Made by a program: the position numbers and the translations under genes | Shown here: in pieces, positions 54,016-56,422 of the stretch | How the letters are laid out: every line of letters starts with the position of its first letter | How positions within the stretch are numbered: position 1 is the first letter of the stretch | The notes under the pieces: model-generated | The model's database searches: none | The model's input: the letters and a program-made list of their open reading frames with translations, nothing else | Told to the model about the DNA's origin: nothing | Assembly (NCBI GenBank): GCA_003278195.1 | Contig: QCGE01000002.1 | Coordinates: forward strand, 62,001-126,000 | DNA length: 64,000 nucleotides | Reading direction: 5' to 3' | Source of the DNA: Prochlorococcus sp. AG-363-P08 | GTDB lineage: Bacteria > Cyanobacteriota > Cyanobacteriia > PCC-6307 > Cyanobiaceae

Positions 54016-54060
54016 TGGTGTGAGGAGGGAGATTTGAACTCCCGACCTTCGGGTTATGAG
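54016..54060 (-). pseudogene. Partial tRNA-Met: 3' half of initiator tRNA
   Basis: On the minus strand, 34 nt (54027-54060) are identical to the 3' half of the intact tRNA-fMet at 56345-56422, from the anticodon loop (CTCATAA) to the T stem. After the identity the 3' end reads TCCTCAC-A-CCA, which looks like a real tRNA acceptor end with CCA, but no matching 5' half is found upstream. It has the expected look of a tRNA fragment left at the end of an integrated element. Confidence 0.75.
54027..54060. repeat. Direct repeat copy 1 (tRNA-fMet 3' half)
   Basis: Distal copy of a 34-base direct repeat; the other copy is at 56357-56390 within the intact tRNA-fMet. Both are in the same orientation, 2330 bp apart. 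Possible attR. Confidence 0.8.
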
Positions 54061-54227
54061 GGCACCAACCTCCGTTGCATACCCTTGGTATGACAGTCTT
54101 TTGAAACCAGTGGTAGACGGATCTGGGACATTTTAGGAATACATTTCATCAGGGCAATAAATCTAGGGAATCAAGTGATACCAGTCGTTTATAGAGAATT
54201 TCGTAATACCAATATCTTACCTCCTTA

Positions 54228-55985
54228 TTAATACGCAACAATCCATTCTTCCTGCTTATTTTTCTTCGGTGGTGATGGTAGATATACATTACGACTAAAA
54301 TCAATCACACTTATCTCAGAGGTATTGTGCATATGATGTGTGCCAGTTAGATCATTAAAGTAACTAGGACGAGCTTCTGACGAGAATCTTTCTTTGTATT
54401 CATCATGGTTTAATGCAATTATTTCATTTAATTGAAAACATTTTCCATATTTTTCATAAGAGTGAGTTTGGTTTACTCTATAAATTCTTTCTTCATGAAC
54501 CACAAGACCAGCATTTCTTGCTTTATTTGCATCAAAGATAACGGGATTACCTTCATTGATAGGCAACCAATTTGTCGTAAAAATATCTTCTGAATAAAAT
54601 ATATGTAGTTCTGAATTATGATCATCCATCCCAATTGAGCAGACATTAGTTAACATATACCAAGTGCCATCTCTTTTGATTAACATAGTGTCTACCGCAG
54701 AAATATTAGTCATTAATGTCATTAAAAATTCCCATTTTTTTGGGTAATCTATACACTTATAAAGTCTAATATCTTTATTTTTGGATGATTCGGGAATCAT
54801 GTAAATTTCACCACCTTCTTCAAAAATAAATGGAAAAGACAAATGGTAGTCTTCTTCTAATACTGTGCCAAGATAATTATATTCCTGGTTTTTTATCTCT
54901 ATTGCAGAAATTCTTCCTTTACAATCTATATATGAGTAATCCTCTACGAAGATCATAGTTTGGCCATTTTTCTTATTTACAAAGGGGTCTGCTAAAAAAT
55001 GATAAGGAGGATTTTTAATTTCTTTATATCTAAATAGAGCTGTATTAAGACATGAATTTGTGCTATAACCTATGCTCCATCTTTCAACAAGATATCTTCC
55101 TCTTTTGTTTATAGCCTTCAATAATCTTTTGCAATAACTAATTAGATAAACTTTGAGAAGATACTTTGTTCGTTGAAGTTTTTTTGTGTTGAGTTTATAG
55201 ATCTCTTGATTAGAAAAAATACATGGGTCGTTTTCTTGTTTTATTAAAGAGAAATTATTTAATGCTAGATTCTCTAAAAGTTTTAATATATAAATATTAG
55301 ACTTTTCAGATAAAAATGCTTGGTTTAAAAGCCAATACTCTTTTGTTTGAATAGATCCTCTAAAGAGAACTTTTCCTCCATCTAACTCCTCTGATAGGCG
55401 TTGAATTATGAATCCAGTAGCAAACTCTCGGTTGAAAACTTCCCAAAATCCAGGCGGACCTCCTCTGTTGATTCTATTATCTCCATGATGAAATGAAATA
55501 ATTCCGTGCTTTGTTAATTCTAAGATATCGCCGGAAATTATATCAGTTCCACACCTTAAGAAACAGTCTAGATTGCGCTCTTTGAGTTTATTTAAATCTG
55601 ATAAATTTATATTCCACTTTAATTTCTTTTGGCTGCAAAATTGCTTTGTGATCTCAATCTCTTCAATAGATAGTTCTTTAATACTTCTTTTAGTCGCAAA
55701 TCTTGGAAAAATCTTTCTTACTTTAGGGAGTTCAATTTTAAGTATAATGCTAATTGATATATATTCAATGATTTCTTTTATATTATTTTGCTGGAGTACC
55801 ATTGATAAAAGAGTCTTGAAAAACCCTTTTTGCTTTTGATGCTTTATGATTGCTTTTTGGGACTCATCTTTACATTTAATGACTATAGGCTTATGGAATA
55901 ATTCTGAAGTAATTATTTTTTCACACAACTGATAGTCATATGAAGAAATCATATCATTATCAATAAGAATTCCAATTCTTAGCAT
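54228..55985 (-). CDS. Formyltransferase-like domain fused to GIPC-transferase-like propeller
   Basis: A 585-residue protein. Residues about 1-270 resemble the methionyl-tRNA/sugar formyltransferase fold: IISFHHGDNRINRGGPPGFWEVFN at 162-185 holds the catalytic His-Asn-Asp-type region, followed by EELDGGKVLFRG. After about residue 310 comes a C-terminal repeat-rich domain (HFLADPFVNKKNGQTMIFVED, LSFPFIFEEGGEIYMIPESS, TWYMLTNVC, RNAGLVVHEERIYRVNQTHS) that resembles the propeller part of glucosamine inositolphosphorylceramide transferase. Such proteins modify cell-surface glycans or lipids. It is very rich in I, K, N and Y codons compared with its neighbours, which suggests transfer. Confidence 0.75.
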   Translation of the reverse strand: MLRIGILIDNDMISSYDYQLCEKIITSELFHKPIVIKCKDESQKAIIKHQKQKGFFKTLLSMVLQQNNIKEIIEYISISIILKIELPKVRKIFPRFATKRSIKELSIEEIEITKQFCSQKKLKWNINLSDLNKLKERNLDCFLRCGTDIISGDILELTKHGIISFHHGDNRINRGGPPGFWEVFNREFATGFIIQRLSEELDGGKVLFRGSIQTKEYWLLNQAFLSEKSNIYILKLLENLALNNFSLIKQENDPCIFSNQEIYKLNTKKLQRTKYLLKVYLISYCKRLLKAINKRGRYLVERWSIGYSTNSCLNTALFRYKEIKNPPYHFLADPFVNKKNGQTMIFVEDYSYIDCKGRISAIEIKNQEYNYLGTVLEEDYHLSFPFIFEEGGEIYMIPESSKNKDIRLYKCIDYPKKWEFLMTLMTNISAVDTMLIKRDGTWYMLTNVCSIGMDDHNSELHIFYSEDIFTTNWLPINEGNPVIFDANKARNAGLVVHEERIYRVNQTHSYEKYGKCFQLNEIIALNHDEYKERFSSEARPSYFNDLTGTHHMHNTSEISVIDFSRNVYLPSPPKKNKQEEWIVAY

Positions 55986-56073
55986 TACAACAAAATTGCT
56001 ACTACAAATTTCGCACTATCCCAACCATTTGTCAATTGTTCTTTGCATTTTTCCCTCAAAAATACTTTATGGC

Positions 56074-56244
56074 ATGTTGATAGCTGCAAATTTATCTAAT
56101 AAGATAATTAATGGTTTCATTTTTTATTTCATTCACAAGTATTTCCTGTTAATTTATTCCTTCGTTAAAAATTATGTAACAATAAAATTGCCTGATGAAG
56201 TTGCTGATAAATGGATAGAAGAATGCGGCAAACCTCAGAAGTAA
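56074..56244 (+). CDS. Possible small protein in the island
   Basis: A 56-codon frame from the ATG at 56074 (the frame is open from 55996, with TTG). It has one hydrophobic segment (IINGFIFYFIHKYFLLIYSFV), then a soluble tail VTIKLPDEVADKWIEEC, which resembles a short DNA-binding strand-helix. The evidence is only coding length and composition. It may be spurious. Confidence 0.3.
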   Translation: MLIAANLSNKIINGFIFYFIHKYFLLIYSFVKNYVTIKLPDEVADKWIEECGKPQK

Positions 56245-56312
56245 AGAATCTCTCTTTCAATCAATAAGTGAGGTGCAGCATATTCTCCTTACTGAAAACC
56301 CTGTCATGCCAA

Positions 56313-56344
56313 CAAAAAACCCCCGCCGGAGCAGGGGTTTCATT
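56313..56344 (-). terminator. Rho-independent terminator after tRNA-fMet
   Basis: On the minus strand, AAACCCCTGCTCCGGC is followed by GGGGGTTTTTT, forming a GC-rich hairpin with a T run just after the tRNA 3' end. It ends transcription of tRNA-fMet. Confidence 0.75.

Positions 56345-56422
<78 letters not shown>

Follow-up and report, generated by a model that had tools for sequence, protein, structure and literature searches.

In the window, by which we mean the whole 64,000-nt stretch of Prochlorococcus sp. AG-363-P08 DNA that was analysed, an open reading frame (ORF) on the minus strand encodes an intact protein of 585 aa with an ATG start and free of internal stops, and stands between a GMC oxidoreductase gene and an asparaginase II gene. 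It is the sole clear gene of an insert of 2.33 kb bracketed by 37-nt direct repeats that are 97% identical to each other; the right repeat lies within an intact tRNA-Met, of which it forms the 3' part, and the left one matches tRNA-Met at 91% over a longer alignment. The insert has a GC content of 31.6%, the remainder of the window 38.3%; the ORF itself is at 30.1% against 38.0% for the window, with ORF-length stretches of equally low GC found at 3 of 623 positions, all of them starting in the ORF and ending in the insert. Two other ORFs of the insert, 88 and 82 aa long, had no Pfam match, and the 82-aa frame (55996-56244, plus strand) is possibly not a gene. The features are listed below.

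54024-54060, no strand: left 37-nt repeat, a copy of the 3' part of tRNA-Met (97%)
54061-56353, no strand: insert between the repeats, 31.6% GC (from the repeats, the empty site in genome G017 and the GC content)
54228-55985, minus: fusion ORF, 585 aa, formyltransferase fold and GINT1_N propeller (ORF call, Pfam, AlphaFold)
54228-55109, minus: C-terminal half, residues 293-585, with a GH43/GH130-like propeller from about residues 308-313 (Z 20.7 to 9fj8_A)
54390-55010, minus: PF24793 GINT1_N, residues 326-532 (E 1.9e-39)
55110-55985, minus: N-terminal formyltransferase-fold domain, residues 1-292 (profile E 2.7e-11; pLDDT 88.9; Z 16.2)
55380-55382, minus: Asp202, at the catalytic Asp place (ArnA D140; profile alignment; 80 of the 84 rows have Asp)
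55461-55496, minus: signature SFHHGDNRINRG, residues 164-175, with Ser164 and His166 (alignment to 4iqf and ArnA)
56349-56421, minus: intact tRNA-Met (CAT), border of the insert (tRNA search)
56354-56390, no strand: right 37-nt repeat, inside the intact tRNA-Met (repeat and tRNA searches)

The C-terminal part of the protein matched the Pfam family GINT1_N (PF24793) with a score of 136 bits, well above the curated cut-off of 27, and at E up to 1 no other Pfam family, and no formyltransferase, was matched; in PHROGs there was a weak match only (E 0.034). As a single sequence, the N-terminal half reached E 4.1e-5 with TIGR00460, which is far below the cut-off of that model, and gave a weak match to PDB entry 4iqf (E 4.7e-4). 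With a family profile of 71 rows, the match to the methionyl-tRNA formyltransferase 4iqf strengthened to E 2.7e-11, and ArnA was matched at E 1.3e-6. The AlphaFold model of the whole protein, built with the 71-row alignment, had a pLDDT of 90.5 and a pTM of 0.90, and the N-terminal half modelled alone had a pLDDT of 88.9. The best structural match of the N-terminal domain was Fmt 5uai_A (Z 16.2, rmsd 3.2, 202 residues aligned), and Z values from 16.2 to 13.2 to Fmt, the FDH hydrolase domain, ArnA, WbkC, FdtF/QdtF, and PurN, together with a Foldseek E of 3.9e-9 to WbkC, place the domain within the formyltransferase superfamily fold.

The C-terminal half has the GH43/GH130-type propeller fold, aligning over 235 residues (model residues 313-565) with the GH130 mannoside phosphorylase 9fj8_A at Z 20.7 and rmsd 2.9. 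The 50 matches listed span Z 17.9-20.7 over 225-248 residues, in the order GH130, GH159 (7zei, Z 20.4), GH62 (about 19-20), and GH43 (about 18-19), so that on the predicted model these four families appear close to tied as the nearest fold and are not told apart; the fold is common to all of them, but identity to the window protein is only 8-15%. Foldseek placed GH159 7zei at the top (E 1.4e-8), and its best matches also include trans-sialidases, GH117, and one kelch propeller. The domain matches and structure of the window protein are far past chance, and its two-domain architecture is practically certain. The earlier note had read the protein as a formyltransferase-type N-terminal half joined to a propeller-like C-terminal half; the first is borne out by the family profile and both by the predicted folds, which matched a formyltransferase and a propeller with no mismatch seen in either half.

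The motif HHGDNRINRG occupies residues 166-175 of the protein and is contained in IISFHHGDNRINRGGPPGFWEV. In the profile alignment, His166 corresponds to H104 of ArnA, Asp202 to D140, and Ser164 to N102, the three ArnA positions being what we take to be its catalytic residues. In canonical formyltransferases, the catalytic Asn is thought to hold the formyl group. The combination Ser-His-Asp was found in 76 of the 80 loci that were kept as the best of 107 relatives, mostly within the signature SxHHGDNxxNRGGPxGFWE, the four exceptions reading SRD (L073), EIP (L096), TNG (L057), and SVA (L065); among four further alignment rows, S/H/D stands in three (the window protein, L003, and L004) and NNL in the fourth, L034. 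Over the alignment of 84 rows, S164 is kept in 81, D169 in 81, W181 in 83, E182 in 83, and D202 in 80. Because the two patterns used to find the relatives are themselves parts of the signature, some of its conservation comes from the search. The serine itself does not: of the two patterns, the one with an obligatory Ser is not matched by 76 of the 80 loci, and yet 74 of these carry Ser. As a control, all 22 ordinary formyltransferase-type loci in related genomes (21 distinct places, L017 and L163 being one), chosen by a motif pattern that permitted N, S, T, D, or G, keep Asn. When the profile was run over 98 genomes of the phylum, it found the window and, more weakly, nine other places; no stand-alone HHGDN N-terminal domain was found in these genomes, and all nine of the weaker places have the ordinary Asn motif.

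The protein thus shares with the sugar N-formyltransferases and Fmt (WbkC, ArnA, FdtF/QdtF, WlaRD) the fold and the His and Asp places, but differs in having Ser in place of the Asn of their Asn-His-Asp triad, GDNxxN in place of SLLP, a GFWE that follows, and a fused GH43-like propeller. Because the exchange of Asn for Ser runs across the family while the 22 ordinary loci keep Asn, we regard these proteins as a distinct branch and not as standard sugar N-formyltransferases, and with the catalytic Asn replaced in nearly the whole family, "formyltransferase" is unsafe as a label of activity. Together with the replacement of the usual SLLP loop, the exchange may mean that formyl transfer has disappeared or been altered. 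Whether the N-terminal domain can still transfer a one-carbon group is, in our estimate, evenly balanced. If it does, a folate-bound one-carbon donor, likeliest N10-formyl-tetrahydrofolate, would serve to modify an amino-sugar residue. In relatives from Rhizobium and Caballeronia, the motif is absent and GINT1_N is retained (E 8.3e-41 and 7.7e-43); with the site lost, the N-terminal domain cannot act in this way in those cells.

Within the propeller, D333, H381, E399, D432, R490, and H550 are each kept in 80-83 of the 84 rows and would form a putative active site. The propeller profile gave one chance-level match only against solved structures, with no alignment to a solved glycosidase. That the propeller is a transferase or trans-glycosidase, and not merely a binding module, is a possibility that we put a little below even. 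At E up to 0.01, GINT1_N was matched by 71 of 71 family members, GH43 by 21, and Formyl_trans_N by 14. The Pfam family takes its name from the N-terminal domain of the plant glucosamine inositolphosphorylceramide transferase 1. In plant GINT1, the catalytic domain is the C-terminal GT64. GT64 was not among the matches to the window protein (Pfam, E up to 1) or among the six families matched across the 71 members (E up to 0.01), and the proteins described here differ further from plant GINT1 in their prokaryotic surface-glycan neighbourhoods and in the formyltransferase-fold domain that precedes GINT1_N. The link to plant sphingolipid glycosylation made in the earlier note is therefore unsupported: it came from the family name, and GINT1_N is a shared module only.

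These observations bear on an alternative in which the N-terminal half would serve as a pseudoenzyme, or as a scaffold that binds a sugar nucleotide or folate, and the propeller alone acts as a glycosyltransferase, a transglycosidase, or a phosphorylase-like enzyme. The replacement of the canonical Asn by Ser speaks for it, as do the several relatives that have the propeller without the motif and the cyanobacterial proteins in which GINT1_N stands alone. The latter (L022-L033) belong to one family (f32) found in 12 of 386 genomes scanned, with frames of 318-348 aa and profile matches near full length. In a tblastn search of the Rosetta-stone type, with nine N-terminal domains against 24 loci (L005-L008 and L022-L041, most of them stand-alone GINT1_N, with flanks of about 1.5 kb a side), only the fusion loci L034, L035, and L036 were matched, and no formyltransferase-like ORF was seen in the short flanks of the stand-alone genes. 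The conservation of the signature, on the other hand, although partly built by the search, is difficult to account for unless the site has a chemical function, and we consider the scaffold explanation rather doubtful.

The fusion is widespread. A scan of genome contigs matched 146 stretches, of which 107 encode relatives, and in the best 80 of these 107 loci the fusion recurs across 14 phylum groups as well as on a haloarchaeal plasmid, the carriers including marine picoplankton, soil bacteria, and a haloarchaeon. The protein of the haloarchaeal plasmid is 584 aa long, bears the signature FHHDDERKYRGVPPCFWE, and has matches to GINT1_N (E 1.8e-37) and Formyl_trans_N (E 0.005). Of the 84 alignment rows, 71 were used in alignment A3, 55 in A4, and 37 in A6. 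On a quick tree of 81 rows (without L106, L061, and L115), there were 30 changes of phylum label over the 14 groups, where the minimum possible is 13 and the mean after shuffling was 41.1; this intermixing of phyla in the sequence tree argues for what would be frequent horizontal transfer, with paralogy and misbinned contigs also able to raise such a count. The window protein pairs with L042 from a Prochlorococcus single-cell genome (43% identity, support 99), a protein that lacks its N-terminus at a contig end. Near-full-length matches occur in 3 of 197 genomes (the window's own and its relatives), namely the own genome, G020, and G066, and a fourth family member, with the site lost, was found in G442 from a second sample of genomes.

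Other vehicles and roles were considered and rejected. In a scan of viral contigs, 15 stretches matched and none encoded a relative, and 50,697 phage records yielded two weak partial matches only; PADLOC, used to look for a role in phage defence, matched neither the window protein nor L042. Among 72,556 plasmid records, 81 matched and none covered at least 80% of the query. The window's own genome also contains part of another copy of the fusion (contig C5, 3277-3453), a truncated C-terminal fragment covering residues 533-575 at about 62% identity that lies between an FkbM-type methyltransferase ORF and a DXD glycosyltransferase ORF; it looks like a copy that has decayed within a different glycan region.

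Within the window, no glycan cluster was found beside the gene by ORF calls and Pfam, and L003 stands alone between housekeeping genes in the same manner. In other genomes, the neighbourhoods of the relatives are rich in polysaccharide genes. Among 125 adjacent ORFs (the complete immediate neighbours on either side, 150-699 aa, of the best 80 of 107 loci), Pfam identified group 1 glycosyltransferases in 23, GT2 in 6, and UDP-glucose/GDP-mannose dehydrogenases in 4. The Rhizobium relative lies near flippase, Wzz, export, sugar transferase, and aminotransferase genes, the Halorussus relative amid genes for GT2, GT4, a polysaccharide lyase, and an aminotransferase, and the Caballeronia relative near glycosyltransferase and asparagine synthase genes; all three records label the protein, or the relative without the motif, "hypothetical protein". 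L004 adjoins ORFs for a CDP-glycerol glycerophosphotransferase and a cytidylyltransferase. In 32 of the 73 loci with at least 3 neighbours, no neighbour received a glycosyltransferase label, in a count of low sensitivity made with few query proteins, which is a lower bound and had as its sole control the window's ORFs of at least 120 aa, with no match. A look at such neighbourhoods in other genomes had been suggested together with the idea of a glycan or lipid modification; the glycan role has gained from it, and we rate a role of the protein in surface glycans as quite probable, while nothing observed points to a lipid substrate.

The same neighbourhoods would suit an ordinary sugar N-formyltransferase that tolerates Ser for Asn and carries a non-catalytic, carbohydrate-binding propeller, comparable to the longer-chain FdtF/QdtF. 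ArnA and WbkC have a glycan setting, and the fold and the His and Asp positions of the window protein fit sugar formyltransferases. Set against this, the changes from Asn to Ser and from SLLP to GDNxxN are near-fixed across phyla and set the family apart from all 22 ordinary loci, and amino-sugar aminotransferases are seldom adjacent: a DegT aminotransferase, relevant because it would make the amino-sugar acceptor, was labelled in only 5 of 80 loci by the same low-sensitivity count. We think this explanation unlikely.

The reading that we lean towards is that of a two-domain enzyme of surface polysaccharides, moved between microbes as accessory cargo. The protein would presumably be cytoplasmic and act in surface-polysaccharide biosynthesis, and the propeller, with its near-invariant acidic, His, and Arg residues, would bind or transfer the same glycan that the N-terminal half modifies; with both halves working on one glycan, modification and glycan handling would be coupled in a single protein. 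We infer this chemistry, and a horizontally moving surface-glycan cargo is the best reading of the locus; the gene product probably helps to vary the microbial sugar coat.

The tRNA-Met site of the window was compared with same-tRNA stretches taken from seven relatives. In G017, the distance from the GMC oxidoreductase gene to tRNA-Met is only about 125 bp, which is an empty site. In G001, of the same genus, three tRNA remnants precede the intact tRNA, in G002 and G004 there is one each, and none was found at the site in G003, G029, or G013; the GMC gene lies outside the stretch in G003, G029, G013, and G004. The three successive 3' remnants of tRNA-Met in G001 (L152, 4011-6722) have small ORFs between them and apparently reflect repeated insertions at one site. 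Between two of the remnants lies a methyltransferase-like ORF (Methyltransf_24, E 1.9e-5, slightly below the cut-off), and in G003 a 428-aa ORF without a Pfam match adjoins the tRNA. With an empty site, remnants, and varied ORFs at tRNA-Met in relatives, the site looks like a hotspot. Of 16 of the 80 related loci scanned for tRNAs, only L064 had a tRNA and only L068 a tmRNA, neither adjoining the fusion gene, so on these 16 loci the tRNA insert is a trait of this site and not evidently one of the family.

According to the published account (PMC10872708), tRNA-Met is one of seven tRNAs used by tycheposons in Prochlorococcus, and these elements are 4-200 kb in size. Like tycheposons as described there and tRNA-borne islands, the insert lies at the 3' end of tRNA-Met and has tRNA-derived repeats; in contrast to them, it is just 2.33 kb long, and a tyrosine recombinase was not found in it. 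Because the size and the recombinase are lacking, we class the insert as tRNA-borne cargo and not as a tycheposon. The tyrosine recombinase family PF00589 had no match in the window's genome, which is 84% complete, and was matched in 5 of 5 other genomes. That the gene is horizontal cargo at tRNA-Met is very probable, and such a small tRNA-borne insert would serve to vary the cell surface. The insert could instead be the decayed remnant of a larger mobile element, its gene a passenger without present function in this strain, as its one clear gene, the lack of a recombinase found, and the truncated second copy elsewhere in the genome might suggest, but an ORF intact over 585 aa with the family's signature residues kept makes this very improbable.

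Returning to a two-domain surface-polysaccharide enzyme carried as cargo, a bolder and only tentative extension is that the Ser-His-Asp branch catalyses another kind of one-carbon or acyl transfer, with glycans as its target, and that the GH130/GH43-like propeller directly couples this step to the transfer of glycosyl groups; the branch would be spreading among bacteria and archaea as cargo that varies the cell surface, in some cases as minimal inserts of a single gene at tRNA-Met. In the open-access literature, outside which most subscription journals lie, we found no paper joining the glucosamine inositolphosphorylceramide transferase with a formyltransferase, and none joining formyltransferase, propeller, glycosyltransferase, and polysaccharide; among the matches listed for GINT1, none was visibly on prokaryotic proteins. 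The folds are known, and the open-access literature showed no description of the near-fixed Ser-His-Asp site and the fusion, which may have been published elsewhere. A formyltransferase fold in which the catalytic Asn has been exchanged through nearly the whole family offers a testable case, and its joining to a propeller that has hydrolases and phosphorylases among its relatives in fold would widen the known means of decorating surface glycans. Surface glycans matter for phage attachment and grazing, and the window's lineage illustrates that one glycan gene may occupy a tRNA site as exchangeable cargo. A GINT1_N relative without the HHGDN motif was also observed on a Rhizobium plasmid (L170, 2125-17009), where it adjoins NRPS/PKS and phosphopantetheinyl transferase genes and lies near exopolysaccharide genes.
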